A stretch of 32,198 nt of DNA from a virus, in IMG/VR virus record IMGVR_UViG_3300020420_000041, positions 1-32,198 of that record. One strand, written 5' to 3'. Of the stretch, positions 12,423-31,711 are shown one piece after another (within the stretch, counting starts at the first letter, position 1; the number at the start of each line of letters is the position of its first letter). A program made the translations under genes and the position numbers. The notes below the pieces were generated by a model that was given only the letters and a program-made list of their open reading frames with translations, was not told the origin of the DNA and made no database searches.

Positions 12423-15400
12423 CTATTCTTCACTAAAGTATCCAGTTAATCCAGATTGTGGGTTTGCGTATCCTGGTTTTGCGTAAGTTGTATTATATAA
12501 GTTGAAATTACTGATACTACCTGCTCTAATGAATATAGCTTGTTCACTAGGATCGAGTGTTGCTTTATCCCATGGAGCCGCATCATTATCCCATGAAGTA
12601 GCATCCCACGTTGATTGTACAGTTTTGTCAATAATTGTTGTACCAACAGGATCAAACGCACTCCATCTTGCTGATGTAGATGCATTTGGAATATTATGCT
12701 GTACACTAGCAGATCTTACAGCTTCTGTTGTAGTGTGAGCATATATTGGAGTACCTAGTACGCCTCTTCTAATTCCTGTTAGTGTATTGCCATTAATACC
12801 AGTAAATTCAATCAACTCTGCGCCTATCCAAATTCTACTTGGGTTGTTTTCATTAACAACACCAGATGGAATTGAATCAATGGTTCCAATTGAACTGCTA
12901 GAATCATCTGGATCTGGTACGGTTAATGTGTTCCAAAGCACTGAAGCATTTGTAACTGTTATTGATGAAACACTAGTGCCAATGTTTGTAGTTAATGTAG
13001 TTTCTGCAACTTTTGGTAGTCTTTGAAAAAGTGATCTACCATCAGCACCATAAAAAATTCTAAATGCATATTGATCACCATAACCATGTTGTTCTGTAGT
13101 ATTACCATCATTATCTATATCAGCTGTATCAGTATCCATTTGTTCATATGTGATTGCAGTGATACTCAAAGTTTCTTTTACTTTTGTTGGTATTAATTCT
13201 TGTGGATGATCTTCATGTTGTGGTCTAACAAAACCAGCACCGTCAAAATTAATTGTAATTAAACTCCAATTACCAGCATCATAATCAGTTTTAAATGTTG
13301 TTGACGCTGTATGATCTTTTGCTGTGAAGTATACATAATCTTCAATTAAATCCCATCTGCTATTTTGTAAAACAGTTTCACTTGCAAGATTTTTATGTGC
13401 AACATTACATTTGTAAAGTCTATTATTATATTTGACTAGATCATCAACTGCGTAAGTATTTGACACACTCCAAGTTGCAAAGTGTGATATATCATCATAT
13501 CTTACATAACTGTTTGATGTGATTGCACCTGAACTATTTGTAGTAATTTTTGTTGAATATGCTGTACCTGGCTTCCATGAGTTTTTACTTTGGAATAAAG
13601 AACGATAAACTTTTTGTTGTACATCTGCGTCCCAGCCAATATCATTATCATATCTATGTTTGTCAATACCAATATTATTTCCTAAGTCGTCAATTGTAAA
13701 TGGTGTGCTATCAAGATCTAAATCATTAAATGGAGAAACTATGTTATGTAATTGTTTCATAAATGCATCAACAGAATCTTGATTTGTTGTTATTAAAGAT
13801 GCTAGTTGCGATCCAAAATAGAATTTTGCAATTCTATCAATTGCACTTGCGTCAGGTACAGTTGTTAAAGAAGTTCTTTTCTTTAATGCTTCAAGTTGTT
13901 GTGCTTGAGTTCCTGAACTTAATACTTCAATATTTTTAGAAACTCTATCAAATACTAAATCAGTTCTCATGTTAATTGATTTTTCTGTCATATTAACATC
14001 AGCTTGTTCTGTTGCTGTTGATTTTTTAGATAAGAAGTTTAACAGCTTTCCGTGATATGGTTTTACTTCATTTACATATTTTTCTACAAACGCAAACGTA
14101 TCTGGTTTGTAAGATACTTTTTGTTGTAAACTGTTGTCATTTTGTAAAACGTCAAAATAACTAGTTTTCATAATCCAATCTATATTTGTTTGTTCAGTAA
14201 ACACATAATTAATACATTCAAACAGTAACTCACTTAATGATTGTTTATTAGATCCTGATAATACCTTAGTATATAAAGAATTCATAATTTGTCTAATTTC
14301 TGTTTCACTTGCAGTACTGCTAGTCCAAAAATCATTTTTTAAATTCATTGTACTTGTTTGTGTAGCTACTCTTACAAGTTCATATGTAGCTGGGTCTATA
14401 CCTTCGTCATCTAAATGACCTGCTTGATGACCTTGAGTAGATGTTGAATATGTGTAACCTGTTTCTTCGCCTGATGTTGTTTGTGATGCAGTTTCAGTTG
14501 TATCAATGCCAACGTCAGTTTGTCCTAATAATATTTTTTCTCTATTACCATAAATGTAAATTGCCCATTTAGAATTATTATCAATGTTTACTTTAATAAC
14601 TTCATTTTTGTTTAAAACTGAAGTATCTATTTCAGATGCAGTATCAACAATTCTATTAACAATTAGTGAACTATTATATCCTGGCAAATAAAAATCAACC
14701 TTATCATATAATGTACTTGTTGTTATTTCTTTATCCCATCCTGGATATTCAACATCAAGATTAATTCTTGATAATATATTATTTGCTTTGTATTTGAATA
14801 ATCTTCTAGCTTCTTTAATATCTTTAAACCAACTTTGTCTTGGTCTTATGCTGTTACCATATTTCATATTTTCATGAAGATTAGTATCTGGTACTGCAAA
14901 ACCTAAACGATCCTTACCAGATAATGAATCAGTAAATTTATTCCAAATAGTATCAGGTACTAATTCGTTTGGATCATTTTCTTTAATTAATAACCATTGT
15001 TTGTGAACTGGTATATCAAGGTCTTTAGTTTTATAGTTTACTCTCAATACACTGTTATCAGTTGAAATAAATTTAGCAACGTTTGAAACTAGTATGCTTG
15101 ATGTTGACACCGGAGCATACCAACTTAATCCTTGTGATGTTGGATTTTTAAGAAGTCTTTGAATTGACAATGCTGACAGAGATCTGTCTAACATGCTAGG
15201 AACTTCTGTTCTTGATTTTACCCAGAAATAATATGAAGTTGTTTCAATACCTTGTCTATCAGTTTCTTTTTCAATTACGTAATCTGTTGTACTTTTAACA
15301 GTACCATCTAAGTTCCAACTAGTTGGAACCTTACTACTTTTAACCCATTCGTAAACATCAATTGTTGAACCTGGGAATAAAGTACCCCAATTTTTTAATC

Positions 15401-18400
15401 GATATTCTTGATCAAAGTTTTCATATTCAATATATCTTATTGAACTTAAATCCCACCATAATTTACCAACTTGTTTTTCTCCCCAAACATCTAAATCATT
15501 TGCTGTTTTAATTGTTGTATTTGCAGTGTTTGTAAACACAGCTGGATCTGTTTTTCTTATGTATGATAATTCTCTTATTGCAATACCAGGATACATATTT
15601 TTGAGAGGATCAAACACTTCAAGATCAACTTCATTTTCACCATCATAGTCATTGTATATTCTTGATTTGTTTAATAATGCAGAGTTAACTTGATAGCTTT
15701 GTTTTCTTTTTGTATTATTAAACAGTGTTTGTCCTGGTGTAGTTGCAGAATAATCTACGTCTGAATCAATTATCCAATAATTAGATCCAATAGTAACATT
15801 TGCTGAAACGTTGGCGTTACTTGCCAAAGCATCATATTTGTCTCTAGTTGTTGTGCTTGTAACAGCTTTCATAGTGTACCAATTACTATCACCACCATTG
15901 TCTATAAAAATTCTATCGCCATTAGTAAATGTTACTTCAGAGCAAACATTTGATACAAAGTCATTAACTGTAGCTGACAAGTCGGCTCCTACGTTAGATT
16001 GATCTATGCCATTGTTTCTTGAAGCAAGTCTTACATCTTTCCATTTGTATAAAGGATGTGTGCCACCAGATAAATCATTTGCTGTTACAGAAGTATTAGA
16101 TCCATCAAGTTCTGAAATTGTGTAAAGTGCTTTTTTATAATTAACTGTAACTGTAGCATTACCTGTTGTTGCATTTGTGGCACTAAATCTTAATCTTACT
16201 GATGTGTTTGATCTATCAGTAATATTACTGTTAAATGATGTTACAGTAGCATTTGCTGATAAACTTTGTGAAGATAATAATAAAGAAGTATTTGCAGTTG
16301 AACCTAAATTAAATGCTGGTCCTGTTCCATCAAATGTTTCATTGATTGTAATTACTACGTTAGATACTGTATCACATTTTAGTAATGCGTCAGCAAAATC
16401 AATATCTGAATTTATTACTGTATCTTTTACAGTAATTGTAACATCAGCTCTATCTGGAATTTGTAATCTATATCCAGATCCACCATCAGTAATAAATGCT
16501 TTATTAATTGTACCTCCTGATTGTTCAAGTGTAGCAACTGCAACTCCTGTGTTTCCTGAGAAATGAATACTTGGACTATTATATCCTGTTCCGCCATCAT
16601 TAATTTCTAAATCTAATAGAGCACCAAATGTAGTATCACCATATGCTTGAGAACTTCTTGCAAATATTGTAGCTGTGCCTAGCGATATAGCACCCGACGT
16701 TGCACCTGTGAATACATCTGATGCAACTGGAACCTGTGTGTTTTCATTAACGTGTAAAATAGTTGTAGCACCGTCAGTATATACATTCATTATTTTAGCA
16801 CTCATGCCACTAACACTACCAGTAACTGTTTCGCCTTTTTGGAAAGGTGTAGCTGTATTTGTAAGTGTTGTATTAATTTGATATGTAGGATTATTACCTT
16901 TAAATCTAAGAACTGCACCAACACCAGAACTGTCAACTCCACCAGTTTTAATTGTTACGTTACCTGGTTCGCCAAAGAAGCCACCGCCACCTGATACAAC
17001 AGATACATTTGTAATACCACCACTGCCATCAATTGTAGTAACATTACCTGTAGCTGAAGTTCCTCCAGCACCACTTATCTGAACTGTATCTCCTACTGAA
17101 TAACCTGATCCTGCTGTAGTTACTGTTATTCCAATTACTTTATCTGAAACATTACCTGCAACAACATCAGCATTTGAGCCACCAACATTTGCAAACGTAA
17201 ATGTTTTTGAAATTGATTGATCTTGTAAATTTAATGCAAAAGTTTTATCACCATATGTACTAGCAGTTATACTTCTGTTTGACACATTTGATTTTTCTAA
17301 TAACAAATCAACTGTATCACCATTTGTAGTTAATAGTTTTGTGCTTTCATTCATTGTAACTGTAAATGGAGATGTTGACGTTACAGATTCAATTGCTTGT
17401 GGAATCTGTGTAAATCTATAAACATTCCAATCAGTTGTATCATCTTTTGCTACCCAAACCAAATGTCCGTCTGATATATTTGCAGTTAGATAATTATTTT
17501 TGTAATAAGTGTTTAAATCTGTTTTTGTAAAAACTCTAGCATTAACATCATTGTAATGAACGTAACCTGCTGTAGGCATATCAAACGTTTCTGTTCTTGC
17601 TGTAAATAATTCTTCTGTATTTCTGTTACCACTTGGTTTTTTAACCCATCTAGTGCTATCATCAACATCTATTGTAATAATATTATCTGTTTGAACGTCT
17701 GTTGTAACTGTATCATCTTTCTTAGGTAGAAACTGAATAATTTGAGGATTAGTTTTAATTTCTTCATCGCCAAGTTTTACTTCAATTGATTGATTTATAT
17801 CGCTTCCACCAAAGTCAGATAATTTAATTGCATAATATTCGTAGATATTAATATCTTGATTATCTAAGACTGTTTCACTTCTTAATAATCTATCAATAGC
17901 ATTTTTAGTACCTTTTTGTTTTACAAATCCTTGATAAAATCTAACTTGATTCTCATCAATAATTTCTAGGTTGTCTAAATGATCTCTAGACTGATAACCA
18001 ATTGTATGTAAACCAGCTTTATTAAGTTCTTCGTTGTTTGTAGTTTTGTCAACGTCAAGATATGTTTGTACGTCACGAGCTGATGTGTCAAAGTTACTAA
18101 CAAGTCCAGTAGATGTAATTAAATGACCATTTGCTTCTAATTTACCAGTCCAGTCTTTTGATCTTAAGACAGTTTGTTTTAGTCTTGGTTGTCTAATTGC
18201 AAGTACAGGATCATAAATTACATCATCAAATGATGTTGTGTTATCAAAAACAGTAACATGTTCTAATTCTCTAGTGAATAAATTTACAAAATAAATTGGT
18301 ACATTTTGATCTTGTGTGATTGTAACTTTTTTACCATCTCTAATAACAGTAGTAGTTGACCCATCAATTGGCAATCCAGCTCTATCAAGTATAGCGTAAG

Positions 18401-21400
18401 TGTTGCCAATAATATCTTCAACATTAGATACAATACCTTTTTTAGGTAGATAAGAAACTTCATTAGCTAAAGGAGATAATGTTATTATTGATCCATCTGC
18501 CCATTCACCTAAACTCCAGAACAAATATTCTTTTGCAGAATATAGCCAATCGTATGTTTCTTTAATTCTATTATTTTGTACATCAAATATCCAACCTTGA
18601 TTTTCTAAATATCTACCCCAGTTAATTAAAAAATCAAATACTTCTTGTGCTGTTGAATATTCTGTACCGTATTCAACTACTTTAATTGAATCTTGTACTG
18701 TATTTCTGTAGTAAGTAACTTTAGCGCCACCTTCTGTTGGTGCTTCTGCTACTGATTGATAATTACTTGGAGTAAATTTATCTCCGGTTGTATGGTCCGT
18801 AGTTGCTTTGTAAATTTGTCCTTCATACTTAACATATTCTCCAGTTCCTACAGTATTACCTGGGCTATAAGTTGGAACCTTAACTGGTTTAGCACCTACT
18901 ACTACAGGTGCAGATAAACCGTTTACATCACTTTCAGTAACATTAAAATAATTTGCTCCAGCATCGTATCCGTGTACTTTAAAACCATTACTTGTTTTTT
19001 CAATGATAACACCAGAGTATGCTGTTTTTCCAACTGCTTCACTTGAGTGTACAAAAGTTTGTACGTTACTTGTTGGCAGGAAGATACTTGATGTAGATGA
19101 TTCAGGTGAATATGATTCAGCCTGTACTTTGTATGAATCAAAATCAATGTATGATGCTTGTTTAAGACCTAGTTGCGGAGTAACAGTTCTTACTGTTTCG
19201 CCGTATATGTTTTTAACATCTTTGTTTTGATTTATTAATCTTTCAGAAACAAAATGATTGTAACCATATCCAACTACGATATTTCCAGCAGTAGTTGTTT
19301 CACCATGTACAAATACATTGTTATCAAATCTTTTGTTTGTTAGTTTTGAAAATTTTTGTTTTGTGTTTACGTTTGCAAAATCAACATTTAAAGTATCAAA
19401 CATTGTTTCACAAAATTCAGCTGGTTTAGTCACAAGTAAAACATTCATTAAAGCAAATGAATATGCACTGTCAATAATAAATGCAAACTCCGCCGGAGAT
19501 ATGTCACCTAGTTTCCAATCTTTTTTTGCTTCAGTGGCAACAGGATCAATTGATATTAAACCAATATCTTTTGGATTTTTTAAATTTCCTTGTAAGTCTA
19601 CAGGAACATAATTTGAAAATCCATCATGTCTATAAAAGTTATTTTTATCTGCATATTTGTTTTTTAAATCATTTCTTCTATCACCTAATCTAATAATACC
19701 TTGTTCTATATCATTAATTAAATTATTTCTTTTATCAACATCAGTCCATGAATACGTATCGTCCCACCATGTAGGTTTAATACTAAAGCCTAACAGTTCC
19801 CATGGATGCGTATGAGGTCTTGGTGTTCCATAAAACTTTTGAAATATACCTCTCCAGTGACCAGGTGTTGGCTCGTTTGAAATATTGCTAACAGAACTAT
19901 AGTTCCATGTTTTCCAATTAGATGAATCATATGTATTGTTTAGTCTTAATTCAACATCATTTTTAACTCCCCAATCGTAAGCATGTGATCTCATTGATTG
20001 AACATATTCTTCGTAACTGTAATCTTTTTTATTAAAGTAATTTCCAAATACATTATCATATGAAAGTAAAGGAATATAATCCGGATCAATAAATTTAACT
20101 TCTATGTCATTGTAAATTCTTTTTTCTAGTTCAAGTAATGCAGTATCTTTATAATTATTATATTTTAATGTTAGAGAACCATCATGCCCTTGTATAAAAG
20201 ATTGACTACTTGATGAATAAGATGAATCTGTATATTCTTGTGGTATAAATGTTTTTGTTATACCTAATTTAGCTGGCGATGGTGGAATCCAAGCTGGCTG
20301 TCTTGAACTAAAATAATCAACTTGAATTTTATCACCAATAACTGGTTTATTAGCACCAATAAAAACAATTTTAGTTCCTGCTGAATTATCAATAACGTAA
20401 TCAACATTCATTAACTGAATAATATTATTTTTATAGACGTATAATGATTTTGTATCTTTATCATTAACTGGATTATAACTTGTAGTTAACTCTAATCCAG
20501 CCGCACCCACAAGACTTAAAATTTCTTGATAGTTCTGTGTCATTGATTGAGTATCATTATTCCATGTTTTATTTGTAGCATCAATTGTGATAGTTGTACG
20601 ACTTCCAGTATCACCATATGACATCATTAAACTATAAGCCCAATTTTGAGATAGACTTTTATTAGTATTCATTTTCTTTAGTGTAGTGTCAACAAGTTGT
20701 TTGCCTGTCCAAGCACTAGTGTCATTTTCTCTATCTACTGCTTCTAGTGTTTGTAAAAACTTATTTTTAAATCTTACATATTCGCTTTGTGCAAATCTAA
20801 TTGACTTAACAATGTTTCTATCATCTGAGTTAACATGAGACATAAACTTTAACAACGGTGCGTCATGTTGCAGTATTTCAGTTGATAAATCTAAATCTTT
20901 TCTTGTATCTCTGTAAGTATTATTTCCTAGTGCAAGACCTACAATATTTTTTTGATTTTGTACACCAGATGAAAAATGATCAAGTAAATTACTGTAGCTG
21001 TAACTTGCAATATCTTTATTTTGTGAGTTGTTAGATAAGTTTTTTGGAACTTCAAAATGTGCTGTACTTAATATGCTGTCAACATCATTTGTTTCATACT
21101 TGATTAAAACGTGTTGGTAATTTGTTAAATCACTAGTAAACTTAAGAAACTCTCCATATTCAATTGTGTAAGCAGTTGACAATTTATTATCAACATATAC
21201 TTCTACTGAACTATCGTTAGAAATAATTACATCTAGTTTAAAATTATTTTTATCTGAATATTCATCTGTTTCAAATTCTTGAATTAGTTTTTGCTTTGAT
21301 TTTTTATCTACAGCACGCCATTCATTATAATAATTTGTTTCAGTTTTTTCATCAACTGTAGTATAAGGATTATTAAGCATTAAAACTTTTCCACCCATAC

Positions 21401-23711
21401 CAGCATGTACATGACAATAATAATATAATGTATCTGGGGTTGAACTTGTTGGTTCGATCTCAATGTATCTTGATGTAGATGTATTAAACTGAGCTGACTT
21501 AAATACCGCTTCAGTTACTTCACTGTTATTAAGGTAATATTTTACGCCAGTATTATAAACTGTACCAGAGTTATGTGTACCATCTTGAGTAGTACTTAAT
21601 AAAACTGGATGATATCCTTTTGTGTATCCTTTTGAACCAAAAGATGAATCATTCATTAACAATCTATAAACATTACCTCTTTGTAAAGATAGTGTTTGTT
21701 GTTTAACATTATCTATATAAATTCTATTGCCTGATGTAACAAAGTCAGGATTAACTGTTAAATCATATTCAATTGTGTCTTTTAAAATATTTTTGTAATC
21801 AAAATTTTTGTAATACTTAAACCCATCAACTGTTGTATCTGAATTCAAAAAGTTTTCAAATTGATAGTTACTAATTGAGTTGTAACTAGTATAGTATGGT
21901 GCAAATCCTAATACAGAATCATTTGTGCCTGATCCTACTTTGTAACCAAATATTTTATTTCCGGCAAAGTTTTTTGAACTGTAGGTTGTATCATCTAAAG
22001 ATAAACCTCTGCTATCATACAAAGCAAATAAAGGAGCTTGGTTAAGTGATGTTTTTTGTTGAGATAGTTTCCATTCATAGCCAGTCCAGTAATATTCTTT
22101 ACCGGCATTAACTGCACCTAGCTTGACTGTTACTGAGCTGAAATCATCAATCGTAATTCCACTTACTTTTGTAAGTGTTATTGACGTACCTACTCCAGAT
22201 ACTTCCCATATTGAACTAGAAACATCAAATGCTGATCCAGTTATATCCCAACCTACATCACCACCTGTATTTCCACCACCACCTGTACTTTGATTATTAT
22301 CTGTGTCATGGTCCCATGGATAGCTATCACCGGACCACTGTACTAAATCAGTTTGGAAATTTGGATTAACAAATAATATTTTCATACCATCACGTAATGT
22401 AATGTCATCAACTTTATCACTTGCTAATCCAGTTATATCATCAACTGTTCTAGTTGTTTCTAATACGTCTACTGTTTGTGCATGTCTTTGTCCGTAGTTA
22501 AATAATTTTATATCTTTTTCAAATTCAAGAATTGGTCTTCTGCCTTTTCTATTAATATCTAATTGAAAAATTGAAGGTTGAAATTCTGTTGTACTATCCC
22601 AATAACCATCGTCCCAACCAGTAATGGCTGACGACACGCTGTCAAACGGATGAAAAACTGTAACTTCTTCTTGAAAATTTTTATATGCTGTAATAACGTC
22701 TTTGTGTACCCAACCATTAGTTCTTGACCATGGATTTCTATCTCTACAACCTCTTTCAATAGTAAGATAGTCTGGATTTTCAATTGATGGAACCGTATCC
22801 CATCTTGTTGCATCCCAACCTTCAGTTGTTGATGTTGTGCCTTGATTTTGTGAAGGATCCCATTCTAAAAATTCTTCATTTAAGAATAGTTCTGTTTCAC
22901 TGCTAGTTTCTACAAGCTCAATTCCGTTTTTACTATTCACGCCTTCAACAAAATATCTTTTATTTTCATAACTTGAATTTGAAAGATATCCAGTTGAGAA
23001 TTCAATTAGTAGCCCTGATGTAAATGTAATACTATTAGGTGATGTGTAAGTTTTTAAACCAATAATATCAGTTGGATTAATTTTGTGTAATACAGAAACT
23101 GTATCTCCAGCAACTAAACTTGGACTATTAATTGTTAGTGTTAATCCTGTTGCTGTAAAAGTTGTGATAACTGTACCATTTACTTTTATTTCATCATTGC
23201 TTGATACTGCATAAGCAAGTGTAAAATTAGTTTGTCCGTTTGTTGCTGTGAAAGATTCTGTTGTTCCAGAAACTACAACACTTGGAACACCGGTATCAAG
23301 ACTAGGATACCAATAATAGTTTTCGTAATTTAAAAATTTATCATAATCAATTGGTGGAGAATAAGTGTAATATTTTTGACCAAACAATCTGTTTTGATTG
23401 TTTATTCTACCGTTTTCGTTGACAACATAGTCTAATGCTTCATTAAAAAATATTGCATCAGAAGTTCTTAAACTTTCTGGATTTTTTAATGTTGCTGTAG
23501 TTTCTAGTTGATAATTTTGTCTAAGATTGTTTGATTCTTCTTTATAACTATCTTTGAATGGGTTATAGTAAGTACCATACTTTCTACCAATCCATTCAGT
23601 AACCTTTTCATTATCAGCTTTTGAAAATGCTTGTTCTACTGTGCCATCAAAAAAGTTCTTTAACTTTGGGTTTTGTAAGAACTCTGGTAATTTTGAACTT
23701 ACCTTAGCCAT
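12423..23711 (-). CDS. Giant baseplate/tail structural protein, 3762 aa
   Basis: The largest gene here, at the place where T4 has gp7 and gp8 (directly after gp6), but several times longer than T4 gp7. The N-terminus (LPEFLQNPKLKNFFDGTVEQAFSKAD...YYNP) resembles the start of large structural proteins in marine T4-like phages. Domains visible: a cupredoxin-like domain at about 660-785 with ligands H701, C766, H769 and M772; carbohydrate-binding-like segments (EYVKYEGQIYKATTDH near 1620 and WSVSNTYAVDDLVKYNNRLY near 3410); GSGY-type beta repeats at about 2200-2420; and a C-terminal IWIGAELIEFTG...GIRRGVLGT module near 3640. The frame is intact over 11.3 kb, so it is under selection. It starts 3 nt after the gp6 stop. 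A role in the outer baseplate is likely. Assignment to gp7 itself is inference from position. Confidence 0.9.
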   Translation of the reverse strand: MAKVSSKLPEFLQNPKLKNFFDGTVEQAFSKADNEKVTEWIGRKYGTYYNPFKDSYKEESNNLRQNYQLETTATLKNPESLRTSDAIFFNEALDYVVNENGRINNQNRLFGQKYYTYSPPIDYDKFLNYENYYWYPSLDTGVPSVVVSGTTESFTATNGQTNFTLAYAVSSNDEIKVNGTVITTFTATGLTLTINSPSLVAGDTVSVLHKINPTDIIGLKTYTSPNSITFTSGLLIEFSTGYLSNSSYENKRYFVEGVNSKNGIELVETSSETELFLNEEFLEWDPSQNQGTTSTTEGWDATRWDTVPSIENPDYLTIERGCRDRNPWSRTNGWVHKDVITAYKNFQEEVTVFHPFDSVSSAITGWDDGYWDSTTEFQPSIFQLDINRKGRRPILEFEKDIKLFNYGQRHAQTVDVLETTRTVDDITGLASDKVDDITLRDGMKILFVNPNFQTDLVQWSGDSYPWDHDTDNNQSTGGGGNTGGDVGWDITGSAFDVSSSIWEVSGVGTSITLTKVSGITIDDFSSVTVKLGAVNAGKEYYWTGYEWKLSQQKTSLNQAPLFALYDSRGLSLDDTTYSSKNFAGNKIFGYKVGSGTNDSVLGFAPYYTSYNSISNYQFENFLNSDTTVDGFKYYKNFDYKNILKDTIEYDLTVNPDFVTSGNRIYIDNVKQQTLSLQRGNVYRLLMNDSSFGSKGYTKGYHPVLLSTTQDGTHNSGTVYNTGVKYYLNNSEVTEAVFKSAQFNTSTSRYIEIEPTSSTPDTLYYYCHVHAGMGGKVLMLNNPYTTVDEKTETNYYNEWRAVDKKSKQKLIQEFETDEYSDKNNFKLDVIISNDSSVEVYVDNKLSTAYTIEYGEFLKFTSDLTNYQHVLIKYETNDVDSILSTAHFEVPKNLSNNSQNKDIASYSYSNLLDHFSSGVQNQKNIVGLALGNNTYRDTRKDLDLSTEILQHDAPLLKFMSHVNSDDRNIVKSIRFAQSEYVRFKNKFLQTLEAVDRENDTSAWTGKQLVDTTLKKMNTNKSLSQNWAYSLMMSYGDTGSRTTITIDATNKTWNNDTQSMTQNYQEILSLVGAAGLELTTSYNPVNDKDTKSLYVYKNNIIQLMNVDYVIDNSAGTKIVFIGANKPVIGDKIQVDYFSSRQPAWIPPSPAKLGITKTFIPQEYTDSSYSSSSQSFIQGHDGSLTLKYNNYKDTALLELEKRIYNDIEVKFIDPDYIPLLSYDNVFGNYFNKKDYSYEEYVQSMRSHAYDWGVKNDVELRLNNTYDSSNWKTWNYSSVSNISNEPTPGHWRGIFQKFYGTPRPHTHPWELLGFSIKPTWWDDTYSWTDVDKRNNLINDIEQGIIRLGDRRNDLKNKYADKNNFYRHDGFSNYVPVDLQGNLKNPKDIGLISIDPVATEAKKDWKLGDISPAEFAFIIDSAYSFALMNVLLVTKPAEFCETMFDTLNVDFANVNTKQKFSKLTNKRFDNNVFVHGETTTAGNIVVGYGYNHFVSERLINQNKDVKNIYGETVRTVTPQLGLKQASYIDFDSYKVQAESYSPESSTSSIFLPTSNVQTFVHSSEAVGKTAYSGVIIEKTSNGFKVHGYDAGANYFNVTESDVNGLSAPVVVGAKPVKVPTYSPGNTVGTGEYVKYEGQIYKATTDHTTGDKFTPSNYQSVAEAPTEGGAKVTYYRNTVQDSIKVVEYGTEYSTAQEVFDFLINWGRYLENQGWIFDVQNNRIKETYDWLYSAKEYLFWSLGEWADGSIITLSPLANEVSYLPKKGIVSNVEDIIGNTYAILDRAGLPIDGSTTTVIRDGKKVTITQDQNVPIYFVNLFTRELEHVTVFDNTTSFDDVIYDPVLAIRQPRLKQTVLRSKDWTGKLEANGHLITSTGLVSNFDTSARDVQTYLDVDKTTNNEELNKAGLHTIGYQSRDHLDNLEIIDENQVRFYQGFVKQKGTKNAIDRLLRSETVLDNQDINIYEYYAIKLSDFGGSDINQSIEVKLGDEEIKTNPQIIQFLPKKDDTVTTDVQTDNIITIDVDDSTRWVKKPSGNRNTEELFTARTETFDMPTAGYVHYNDVNARVFTKTDLNTYYKNNYLTANISDGHLVWVAKDDTTDWNVYRFTQIPQAIESVTSTSPFTVTMNESTKLLTTNGDTVDLLLEKSNVSNRSITASTYGDKTFALNLQDQSISKTFTFANVGGSNADVVAGNVSDKVIGITVTTAGSGYSVGDTVQISGAGGTSATGNVTTIDGSGGITNVSVVSGGGGFFGEPGNVTIKTGGVDSSGVGAVLRFKGNNPTYQINTTLTNTATPFQKGETVTGSVSGMSAKIMNVYTDGATTILHVNENTQVPVASDVFTGATSGAISLGTATIFARSSQAYGDTTFGALLDLEINDGGTGYNSPSIHFSGNTGVAVATLEQSGGTINKAFITDGGSGYRLQIPDRADVTITVKDTVINSDIDFADALLKCDTVSNVVITINETFDGTGPAFNLGSTANTSLLLSSQSLSANATVTSFNSNITDRSNTSVRLRFSATNATTGNATVTVNYKKALYTISELDGSNTSVTANDLSGGTHPLYKWKDVRLASRNNGIDQSNVGADLSATVNDFVSNVCSEVTFTNGDRIFIDNGGDSNWYTMKAVTSTTTRDKYDALASNANVSANVTIGSNYWIIDSDVDYSATTPGQTLFNNTKRKQSYQVNSALLNKSRIYNDYDGENEVDLEVFDPLKNMYPGIAIRELSYIRKTDPAVFTNTANTTIKTANDLDVWGEKQVGKLWWDLSSIRYIEYENFDQEYRLKNWGTLFPGSTIDVYEWVKSSKVPTSWNLDGTVKSTTDYVIEKETDRQGIETTSYYFWVKSRTEVPSMLDRSLSALSIQRLLKNPTSQGLSWYAPVSTSSILVSNVAKFISTDNSVLRVNYKTKDLDIPVHKQWLLIKENDPNELVPDTIWNKFTDSLSGKDRLGFAVPDTNLHENMKYGNSIRPRQSWFKDIKEARRLFKYKANNILSRINLDVEYPGWDKEITTSTLYDKVDFYLPGYNSSLIVNRIVDTASEIDTSVLNKNEVIKVNIDNNSKWAIYIYGNREKILLGQTDVGIDTTETASQTTSGEETGYTYSTSTQGHQAGHLDDEGIDPATYELVRVATQTSTMNLKNDFWTSSTASETEIRQIMNSLYTKVLSGSNKQSLSELLFECINYVFTEQTNIDWIMKTSYFDVLQNDNSLQQKVSYKPDTFAFVEKYVNEVKPYHGKLLNFLSKKSTATEQADVNMTEKSINMRTDLVFDRVSKNIEVLSSGTQAQQLEALKKRTSLTTVPDASAIDRIAKFYFGSQLASLITTNQDSVDAFMKQLHNIVSPFNDLDLDSTPFTIDDLGNNIGIDKHRYDNDIGWDADVQQKVYRSLFQSKNSWKPGTAYSTKITTNSSGAITSNSYVRYDDISHFATWSVSNTYAVDDLVKYNNRLYKCNVAHKNLASETVLQNSRWDLIEDYVYFTAKDHTASTTFKTDYDAGNWSLITINFDGAGFVRPQHEDHPQELIPTKVKETLSITAITYEQMDTDTADIDNDGNTTEQHGYGDQYAFRIFYGADGRSLFQRLPKVAETTLTTNIGTSVSSITVTNASVLWNTLTVPDPDDSSSSIGTIDSIPSGVVNENNPSRIWIGAELIEFTGINGNTLTGIRRGVLGTPIYAHTTTEAVRSASVQHNIPNASTSARWSAFDPVGTTIIDKTVQSTWDATSWDNDAAPWDKATLDPSEQAIFIRAGSISNFNLYNTTYAKPGYANPQSGLTGYFSEE
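21357..21734 (-). other. Cupredoxin-like domain with full type-1 copper ligand set inside the giant protein
   Basis: Residues about 660-785. The order is RIYIDNVKQQTLSLQRGNVYRL, GYHPVLLS with H701, a stretch of strands, then DTLYYYCHVHAGMGG with C766, H769 and M772. The spacing C-x2-H-x2-M is that of amicyanin-type blue copper proteins, and the separate upstream His completes the usual four ligands. The aromatic YYY before the Cys is also typical. Metal binding is predicted, not shown. Confidence 0.68.
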
Positions 23712-27758: not shown

Positions 27759-28319
27759 ATGAAAAAATACGAACAATTTACAGCGGAAGATCGAGTAGAC
27801 GTTTTGCTCAATAATGAAGATATACATTATCTCAATGGAGAACTGACTGAAGAGAATATTGGCAAAGCTGTAAAATGGATCATTGCTTGTAACATCAGTA
27901 AAAAACCAAAAAGAACGTTGAAGTTGTATGTCAATACAACCGGCGGCGATCTTTATGAGACGTTTGCTTTAATTGATGTTATGAGAAATAGCTATCATCA
28001 TATATCCACAATTGGTATTGGTGCTGTTATGAGTGCTGGATTTTTAATTTTAGCAAGTGGTAAACATGGACAACGTTACATAGGTAAAAATACAGGTATA
28101 ATGAATCATCAACATTCAGATGCAATGGAGTCAAAAATGCACGATATGAGAAGTGCTATGAAAGAAAACGTCAACTGTGAGCAAAGATCTATGCAAATAC
28201 TCAGAGACGCAACTGGATATCCATTAGTAGAAGTTCGTAAAAAATTCAATAATCCTTCAGATCAATACTTCACGGCAAAACAATTGGTTGACTTAAAGAT
28301 AGCTGATCATATATTATAA
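27759..28319 (+). CDS. clpP: ClpP-type serine protease (S14 family)
   Basis: 186 aa, about the size of bacterial ClpP. The family landmarks are present: NTTGGD at 60-64 (oxyanion/GG loop), the nucleophile Ser92 in GAVMSAGF, the catalytic His117 in TGIMNHQHS, and Asp168 in NNPSDQYFTAKQLVDLKIAD, which also matches the ClpP C-terminal signature. The triad is complete, so an active peptidase is expected. There is no signal peptide. Possible roles are processing of head or tail proteins, degrading host proteins with a host Clp ATPase, or host takeover. T4-like phages normally use an unrelated protease, gp21, for prohead maturation, so this is probably an addition. It is followed after 4 nt by the 80-aa gene. 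Confidence 0.92.
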   Translation: MKKYEQFTAEDRVDVLLNNEDIHYLNGELTEENIGKAVKWIIACNISKKPKRTLKLYVNTTGGDLYETFALIDVMRNSYHHISTIGIGAVMSAGFLILASGKHGQRYIGKNTGIMNHQHSDAMESKMHDMRSAMKENVNCEQRSMQILRDATGYPLVEVRKKFNNPSDQYFTAKQLVDLKIADHIL

Positions 28320-29479: not shown

Positions 29480-29992
29480 ATGAGCAATAATGAGTTCCAT
29501 AAGAAGATTCAAGATTTACCACAGTTCAATGAAGAACTATACAATCGACTACATAATTCTAAAGAATATGGCTACAACTGGTTAGACATATACAACAAAT
29601 ATCACATTTACGATCCACGTGTAATTAAAGTTCTTAGGATTGAAGATGATGTGGTTGTTATGGAAAAGTTGACAGGATTTACTCTGGATGATACACAGAA
29701 ACTTAGACAATTAAGTATTGAACAAAGGCGTTATATTGTAAATGAAGTCATAGATATCTATAATAAACAATTTCAATTTAAAGATAGTATTTTGGGTCCA
29801 AGAGATATATGGGCACATGGTGACTTTTTTCTACAGAATCTAATGTACAGTGACGGACAAGTTAGGTTAATTGACCCAGAAAGTTTTGGTAGACGTTCTT
29901 TAGAGTTACAAGAAACCAATATGAGATATGGTAAATTCTTTGAAACACTGACTAAATTGATGTGTTTCTTAAATCAATCCTACGGCGATTAA
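29480..29992 (+). CDS. Minimal kinase-fold protein (APH/fructosamine-kinase type), 170 aa
   Basis: The start is the ATG at 29480 just after a late box. An earlier in-frame codon at 29426 lies inside the terminator and is rejected. The C-terminal half has the aminoglycoside-phosphotransferase/choline-kinase catalytic loop HGDFFLQN (H113, D115, N120) and the metal-binding LIDPESFGRRSLELQ (D132, E134), closest in style to the IDPA..G..E block of fructosamine kinases. DDVVVMEKLTGFTL at about 56-69 looks like the last strands of the small lobe with the hinge. There are only about 60 residues before it, so the ATP-binding lysine strand is missing or reduced. It may phosphorylate a sugar or small molecule, or be a degenerate regulator. 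Confidence 0.82.
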   Translation: MSNNEFHKKIQDLPQFNEELYNRLHNSKEYGYNWLDIYNKYHIYDPRVIKVLRIEDDVVVMEKLTGFTLDDTQKLRQLSIEQRRYIVNEVIDIYNKQFQFKDSILGPRDIWAHGDFFLQNLMYSDGQVRLIDPESFGRRSLELQETNMRYGKFFETLTKLMCFLNQSYGD

Positions 29993-30011: not shown

Positions 30012-30040
30012 TTGACCTTTTCCAAAACCTATAGTATATT
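30012..30040 (+). promoter_or_regulatory. Sigma70-like promoter of the structured RNA
   Basis: TTGACC at 30012-30017, a 17-nt spacer, and TATATT at 30035-30040. Directly upstream is a T7A8 tract (29995-30009) that could act as an UP element. The start would fall at about 30046, at the 5' arm of the closing helix of the RNA. Confidence 0.78.
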
Positions 30041-30045
30041 AAAGA

Positions 30046-30297
30046 CAATACCAACAAAGGATTCGCTATCCGATGTTAATAGTGCAAGGAAGAGGGTCTT
30101 ACCAGAGGCTCGAACTTGACTAGTCAGGGGTGGTACCCAGGCATTATCCGGAGAACGGAAGGTGTCACATCGCAGTCACTCGCGGGGCTAGGTTGCTGGG
30201 GTTATAGAATGGTATCTGTGTCTCTGGCTTGGAGGTGTAACCAAGTCCTCCCTATTTTAGGTATTGTTTTAAAAGGCACCGTAAGGTGTCTTTTTTT
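30046..30297 (+). ncRNA. Structured non-coding RNA of about 250 nt, family unknown
   Basis: Four independent signs support an RNA gene. It has its own promoter (30012-30040) and a strong terminator at the end. The central 160 nt (30091-30250) are 87/160 = 54% G+C by my count, against about one third in a nearby coding stretch. The 5' end (30042-30052) and the segment just before the terminator (30260-30270) pair in an 11-bp helix with one G-U. Inside are several hairpins: GGAT/ATCC at 30059-30071; GGGT/ACCC at 30128-30138; a 10-bp stem with one A-A mismatch at 30140-30166 with a GAGAA loop; and a 7-bp stem with one bulged T at about 30226-30247. A possible long-range pairing is CCAGAGGC (30102) with GTCTCTGG (30220). 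I found no conserved tmRNA, RNase P, SRP or tRNA pattern. The exact 5' end is uncertain by a few bases. Confidence 0.85.
30271..30297 (+). terminator. Terminator of the structured RNA, usable from both sides
   Basis: AAAAGGCACC (30271-30280) pairs with GGTGTCTTTT (30285-30294) around a GTAA tetraloop, with T7 following. The minus-strand hub gene stops in the T tract (TAA at 30296-30298), and read from that side the same hairpin ends in four T. It can therefore serve both convergent units. Confidence 0.88.
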
Positions 30298-31711
30298 ATG
30301 ACTGATTATCCAAGTTTTTAGTTTCGTGATCTGGATATGGTTCTCTTGTAGGGAATCTTGTATTAATTGATCCTCTTAATGTTTCTGTTTGTCTTGGAGA
30401 ATTTAAAGAACTTCCTGTTCTGGTTTCTAAAATATTTGTGTACAGTAAGTTTCCATCTGAATCAACTTGGAAAGATATTCCACTGACCGGTACTGCTGTT
30501 GATGCCTCTGGGCCATTCATATCAATTCTTCCTGCTGTTTCTTTATGACTAGTTCCACTTTTAATGTGTGAAGTGATACCTTGTGTTAATTTTAAATCTT
30601 TACTTGAATAGATGCTAGTATTTTCAACTGTTGATGTGCTAATATCTTTTCCAGCTTTCAATTTAAATTCACCTGAAACATCTAGATGTAAATTTCCAAA
30701 CACATCAGCTAAATCAGTTGTTGATTTTGGTTGTGTAGAATCTGCTGTACTGTTTGTTTTAATATTAATATGTCTTCCTGATTCAATATTAATATCTCTG
30801 TCTGCTCTTATATTAAAATCTTTTTCTGATCTCATTGAGATAGAGTCAGCACCAAAAATTTCTATTTTACCTTGATTTGTAATTTCAACCCAACCGGTTG
30901 CATTACTATTGGTTACATAAACTGTATTATTTGAATCATCTAATAATATTTGAGCTCCACCTAATGTTCTTAATCTAATTTGTTGTTGACTTGCATCGTC
31001 CATTACAAACTGATGTCCACCTGGTGTTAATATTCCAAAAACTTTTGATGGAGATTCTCTACGAGCAGATGAATCAGTTAATCCTCTAATAGCATCATTT
31101 TCAAGTCCTTGATTAATTAATCCCTGGTAATGTGGTCCATGTGCTGGCCTTTTTACTCTATCAATTGGTTGTCCTTTTTCTGTGTGTGCTTTGATATCAA
31201 AAATATCTGACAACTGCGACTCTGCACCAATTCTGTTTACTTCCGCTACTGGCAATAACGGTGCTTCATCACCAAAGGTTGTTCCTTTAGCAATACCCGG
31301 CATCATGTGATTTATTCCAGGTTGAATTAAACAACCAATAAAAATACCGTAGTTACTGTTACCATCAATAAATGCTACAGCAACTAAATTTCCTACGTCA
31401 GGTGGTACCATCCACATTCCGTAAGAATTTTGTGTTCCAGAATAACTAGTTTCAGCATCTCCACCTTTTCTTAGTGTGCTAGGATTTGTTGCTCCAGCAA
31501 ATGGTGATGTCCATATAATACTTTTCCACGTTGATGAATCTGTTTTAGGAGTATCAGAACCAATCATATGTACTTTCATTCTACCTAATCTAGCCATATC
31601 AGTAGTATCCATTACTTCAGCTATTTTAATAGTTGTAAGATTACGAGTTTTATTTGACCCGTCTCTTTGCATTGTATAATTGGTTGTTGATGAAATATTT
31701 TTGCCAGCCAT
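30296..31711 (-). CDS. 5: Baseplate hub / central spike protein, T4 gp5-like without lysozyme domain
   Basis: 471 aa. The N-terminal OB-fold of gp5/VgrG-type proteins is visible at about 25-135: TTIKIAEVMDTTDMARLGRMKVHMIG, then NSYGMWMVPPDVGNLVAVAFIDGN and YGIFIGCL. A linker follows (residues 140-230). Then comes a strand-rich repeat region at about 235-345 (QIRLRTLGGAQILLDDSNNTVYV, KIEIFGADSISMRSEKDFNIRADRDINIES), typical of the beta-helical spike. T4 gp5 has a lysozyme domain between these parts; none is seen here, as is usual in marine relatives. The start overlaps the stop of the upstream structural gene by one base (TAATG). It punctures the outer membrane as part of the tail tip. Confidence 0.9.
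   Translation of the reverse strand: MAGKNISSTTNYTMQRDGSNKTRNLTTIKIAEVMDTTDMARLGRMKVHMIGSDTPKTDSSTWKSIIWTSPFAGATNPSTLRKGGDAETSYSGTQNSYGMWMVPPDVGNLVAVAFIDGNSNYGIFIGCLIQPGINHMMPGIAKGTTFGDEAPLLPVAEVNRIGAESQLSDIFDIKAHTEKGQPIDRVKRPAHGPHYQGLINQGLENDAIRGLTDSSARRESPSKVFGILTPGGHQFVMDDASQQQIRLRTLGGAQILLDDSNNTVYVTNSNATGWVEITNQGKIEIFGADSISMRSEKDFNIRADRDINIESGRHINIKTNSTADSTQPKSTTDLADVFGNLHLDVSGEFKLKAGKDISTSTVENTSIYSSKDLKLTQGITSHIKSGTSHKETAGRIDMNGPEASTAVPVSGISFQVDSDGNLLYTNILETRTGSSLNSPRQTETLRGSINTRFPTREPYPDHETKNLDNQS

Follow-up and report, generated by a model that had tools for sequence, protein, structure and literature searches.

A structured RNA candidate between convergent genes

What kind of element lies at positions 30042-30297 of the window, the whole 32,198-nucleotide stretch of viral DNA analyzed here, where the upstream same-strand gene ends at 29992 and the sole gene after the element, a baseplate-hub gene at 30296-31711, is convergent? 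The original prediction was of a new structured RNA with a dedicated function, leader of neither neighbor, equipped with a promoter of its own, a closing helix, hairpins and a terminator whose loop is of GNRA type. Each of these parts is present where it was placed, and with no same-strand gene 3' of the RNA and the hub gene convergent, the dismissal of a leader role stands. We consider it likely that a free-standing, phage-borne gene for a non-coding RNA occupies the interval, its product being a divergent relative of manA, about 250 nt long with its terminator and putatively trans-acting. The upstream gene, which had been called kinase-like, has no match in Pfam, PHROG or phage searches and thus gives no hint on function. 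Elsewhere in the window, one 3762-aa open frame (12423-23711, minus strand) takes up about one third of the stretch, and a Clp-protease-type gene, also similar to phage head maturation proteases, is found at 27759-28319 (plus strand).

The plus strand folds with an energy of -92.3 kcal/mol versus -71.6 +/- 4.3 kcal/mol for shuffled sequences (z -4.79, none of 200 as good), which together with the covariation described below upholds the proposal of a dedicated structured RNA. The minus-strand fold is far less remarkable (z -1.83), and an RNA on that strand was rejected for this weak signal. The G+C content of the core (30081-30254) is 54% relative to 32% for the window, matching the composition originally described, and is the highest among all 174-nt stretches of the window. 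A protein-coding reading was rejected as no frame survives in relatives: the core is open in any frame in at most 1 of 75, and a 61-aa frame meets a stop in 71 of the 75, so that the absence of a protein-like frame first noted in the window extends across its relatives.

The predicted RNA, on the plus strand throughout, is assembled from an outer closing helix P0, whose arms at 30042-30052 and 30260-30270 form 11 pairs in the minimum-energy fold, and a series of enclosed hairpins. A 5' hairpin with stems AACA/TGTT and GGAT/ATCC (30053-30077; helix 2, supported by fold and covariation) precedes helix P1, in which ATAG at 30079-30082 pairs with CTAT at 30252-30255. Next come a CAAG/CTTG stem with the inner hairpin GGGTCTT/GAGGCTC (30085-30118), seen in both fold and alignment, and a branched domain closed by CTAGTC/GGCTAG (30120-30191) that contains hairpins at 30127-30138, 30140-30166 and 30170-30185, its helices 5-8 covarying. 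The 3' portion comprises a long hairpin, GCTGGGG/CTCTGGC (30195-30228; helix 9, with covariation at 4 of 4 counted pairs), and a 3' hairpin, GGAGG/CCTCC (30231-30251; helix 10 of the alignment, also in the fold). Directly after the 3' arm of P0, an intrinsic terminator is predicted at 30271-30297, composed of AAAAGGCACC-GTAA-GGTGTCTTTT (30271-30294), with a GNRA-type loop, and a T run; the corresponding loop in a near relative (L005) is GCAA, likewise GNRA.

Covariation among relatives

Relatives were aligned as 54 representatives with a mean pairwise identity of 65%. Two-sided changes occur at 36 of 50 pairs of the consensus fold and at 39 of 53 pairs of a slightly extended structure, counts that are inflated by relatedness, with bases inside the search pattern conserved by construction. 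Of the cells in the extended structure, 96.4% pair; its covariation score reaches 0.562, whereas shuffling yields 0.189 and sliding the partners yields no more than 0.118. Compensatory changes had been predicted for the closing helix and the 30140-30166 stem, and both show them among the 54 representatives. All six counted pairs of the outer closing helix change on both sides somewhere among relatives, and its outermost pair is broken in 19 sequences. Helix P1 reads AUAG/CUAU in the window and GGGAG/CUCCC in cyanophages and covaries at its variable pair (alignment columns 43/224), and the outer four pairs of the 30085-30118 stem, which lie partly inside the search pattern, are invariant.

The loop GTGGT at 30130-30134 can pair with GTCAC at 30175-30179, and loops taken from one sequence match each other better than loops from different sequences do (0 of 1000 shuffles). 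This loop-loop contact probably corresponds to the pseudoknot given as uncertain when manA was described in 2010 (PMC2864571). Loop and internal-loop bases are conserved as the stems vary freely, a pattern suggesting that the RNA would probably act in trans through its shape, most likely using these conserved loops to bind a protein or ribonucleoprotein of host or phage.

The RNA is a distant branch of manA

A default Rfam scan of the window at gathering scores returned nothing, which explains why the RNA looked new. The claim of novelty nevertheless fell with a permissive scan, which aligned model positions 1-192 of manA RNA (RF01745) at 41 bits (E 2.4e-9), short of the manA gathering score of 55.2 bits. 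Relatives of the same type score from 40.4 to 64 bits against manA, several of them above 55.2, and the copy in pelagiphage Mosig, 72% identical by blastn, passes the gathering score. The consensus helices of manA are recovered over the full-length alignment and backed by covariation in relatives. On sequence grounds, then, the window RNA is a divergent homologue of manA, not a member by Rfam's rule.

Other assignments were considered. At gathering scores and up to E 10, the Rfam models for tmRNA, RNase P, 6S, SRP RNA, group I intron and tRNA gave no match, bearing out the earlier failure to recognize any of the first five, and ARAGORN reported neither a tRNA nor a tmRNA for the window. Further permissive Rfam matches, including Atu_C8 and mir-3689, were rejected as chance level, and a blastn match in a 4.7-kb 'bajarodmic virus' was set aside because it covers only 47 bases of AT-rich flank and promoter. 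Of the functions suggested originally, regulatory sponge and ribozyme are speculative, and so is a decoy that, like 6S RNA, would occupy the host RNA polymerase. The small size of this phage RNA, its strong-type promoter and its presence in phages whose hosts differ widely would suit such a decoy. 6S RNA, however, forms one long hairpin interrupted by a central bubble, whereas the window RNA is predicted to fold into several branches enclosed by a helix, with contact between two loops, and with no 6S match even at E 10 we regard such a decoy as very improbable.

A promoter conserved in front of the RNA

A sigma-70-type promoter, TTGACC-N17-TATATT, at 30012-30040 (plus strand) matches the consensus at 10 of 12 positions. 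Promoters of equal quality number 19 in the AT-rich region around the RNA versus 21.4 expected, not above chance alone, and the weight of the window promoter therefore derives not from match quality but from an equivalent promoter being kept in relatives. Among pelagi-type copies, a promoter of at least 10/12 precedes the RNA at a near-fixed distance in 71 of 75, in a test whose shuffles preserve base content only, and the remaining four carry weaker versions, read by eye. For the cyanophage type, a promoter of at least 9/12 is found in 102 of 104 copies, mostly 4-6 nt before the 5' hairpin. The two exceptions are preceded by a tRNA with zero gap (L269) and by a tRNA-like sequence (L219). The latter, at about 1650-1720 of L219 (minus strand) and directly before manA, resembles tRNA-Gly and was reported neither by Rfam at gathering nor by ARAGORN.

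The position of the -10 box places the expected start of transcription near 30046-30048, in which case about 7 of the 11 closing-helix pairs (CAATACC/GGTATTG) are likely transcribed. Host sigma-70 polymerase would transcribe the RNA on its own, without phage factors, and from established promoter biology the RNA would probably be made early in infection.

The promoter also bears on whether the RNA instead belongs to the upstream mRNA, as its folded 3' end or a tail processed from it, in effect an elaborate terminator. Its position after the same-strand gene ending at 29992 and its own terminal terminator fit such a tail, but relatives retain a promoter that separates the RNA from the upstream gene, the upstream neighbor differs among phages, and many copies have no terminator; we give this explanation very little credence.

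Boundaries and genes downstream

A terminator occurs within 80 nt 3' of the RNA at 24 of 62 distinct pelagi-type loci versus 14 of 477 random control stretches, and relatives carry terminators of unlike sequence at the same place as that of the window. Within 70 nt 3' of the RNA, TATAAATA, the established T4 late-promoter sequence, is found at 24 of the 62 distinct pelagi-type loci versus 4 of 477 controls; at gp32 loci it overlaps the 3' arm of the RNA. In other copies the boundary is a tRNA, whose first base coincides with the final one of the manA match in L184, L208 and L240 and which, as tRNA-Gly, lies directly after manA in S-SSM7, such that tRNA processing would release the manA RNA. 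Frequent adjacency of manA to tRNAs has been reported, as has a CMCompare link between the two that is just low-scoring (PMC3692125). A further hairpin, GACCTAAGATGCAACT...AGTSGGGCAGATGGTC, is conserved within 150 nt downstream of manA at 20 distinct loci (for example L189:8950-9010, plus strand, L205 and L241), with a T run often coming next; its internal-loop bases are conserved, and it has no Rfam match at gathering.

The genes that follow manA are varied, falling into 53 clusters across 155 loci. The commonest are gp32 (40 of 155) and transaldolase (12 of 155), and others include a cold-shock protein, ThyX, a phosphomannomutase-like protein, rubrerythrin and peroxiredoxin.

These observations address the standing interpretation of manA, which was described in 2010 (Weinberg) as a certain RNA, cis-regulatory and possibly a riboswitch (PMC2864571), had its Rfam alignment corrected in release 14 (PMC7779021), and in later papers still carries the cis-regulatory label with reference to metabolism genes (PMC9964418, PMC12197685). 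Under that interpretation manA is a riboswitch-like leader of the following gene and the window copy such a leader, moved away from the gene it once served. Its filing in 2010 and in Rfam and the many cyanophage-type copies that lie shortly before same-strand transaldolase, purine or gp32 genes are consistent with a leader. Against it, the window copy has no same-strand gene after it, is closed by a terminator and thus does not occupy the potential 5' UTR location on which the label is based; terminators, late promoters or tRNAs often intervene between the RNA and the next gene; and the following genes are of 53 kinds. A terminator/antiterminator switch was likewise rejected, since pairing between terminator arms and the RNA does not exceed that obtained with shuffled RNA. 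We therefore view the leader explanation as unlikely, although somewhat less so than a decoy or an mRNA tail. The promoters, the 3' boundaries, the varied following genes and the lack of a target gene in the window all favor an RNA gene in its own right over the cis-regulatory label. Many copies are without a terminator, above all before gp32, and in these the RNA may also head a longer mRNA from its own promoter.

Distribution among phages and hosts

The pattern common to the window and Mosig copies was found in at least 120 viral contigs, and a second pattern, of cyanophage type, in at least 120 more. Baseplate proteins of the window have their closest counterparts, at 37-41% identity, in jumbo phages of the type of PA5oct and Salicola SCTP-2, and several larger RNA-bearing contigs belong to this jumbo-phage lineage; other carriers (Mosig, HTVC008M, G010) are T4-like with gp32. 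A covariance search of cultured phages recovered manA, one copy per positive record, in cyanophages P-SSM2, P-SSM4, P-SSM7, P-HM1, P-HM2, S-SSM5, S-SSM7 and more, gave only a weak match in HTVC008M (25.9 bits, E 7e-6), and detected none in Syn9, S-SM2, S-PM2 or Syn1. In P-HM1 (GU071101) manA lies at 112.8 kb and follows gp23, and in P-HM2 (GU075905), filed as the same species, it lies at 4.8 kb and precedes gp32; the gene thus seems to change place. In cultured cyanophages, small genes annotated as 'hypothetical protein' that overlap manA or lie inside it (GU071101 112705-112881, GU075905 4849-4953, AY940168 164884-165057, GU071097 116417-116623) are probably spurious.

With filters that lose weak matches, manA was not found among the other genomes sampled from the Prochlorococcus family (299) and from one gammaproteobacterial class (368). 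It does occur in a Prochlorococcus single-cell assembly, on a contig bearing a T4-type capsid gene. A host origin was rejected, given the sampled bacterial genomes otherwise without the RNA and the capsid gene beside this copy.

Comparison with known systems

The window RNA is not brand new and is a distant branch of manA; what departs from the 2010 label is its reading as a standalone gene. Literature searches, which covered few subscription papers, found no treatment of manA as a standalone RNA, nor did they find manA transcripts from infected cells; one study of P-HM2 infecting Prochlorococcus MED4 counted intergenic reads (PMC5082946). If manA is an independent RNA gene, it becomes a widespread marine phage RNA, putatively trans-acting, instead of a cis-regulator, and claims of manA-mediated tuning of mannose, nucleotide or photosynthesis genes by these phages lose their basis. 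Tentatively, and with a little less than even confidence, we propose that manA as a whole may comprise trans-acting phage effector RNAs that target a machine shared by all their hosts; they would be movable cassettes, present once per searched record in different marine phage lineages, whose hosts include cyanobacteria and SAR11.

Phage tRNA and tmRNA genes are comparable as stable RNA genes of the same genomes, and tRNAs abut manA in some phages. With manA (RF01745) itself, the window RNA shares the full-length 192-position alignment, the basal helix, of which P1 is the counterpart, the hairpins, the loop-loop contact and an occurrence in marine phages. In contrast to the RF01745 model, it has an outer closing helix; it also has its own terminator and no downstream gene, and it occurs both in T4-like phages and in a jumbo-phage lineage.
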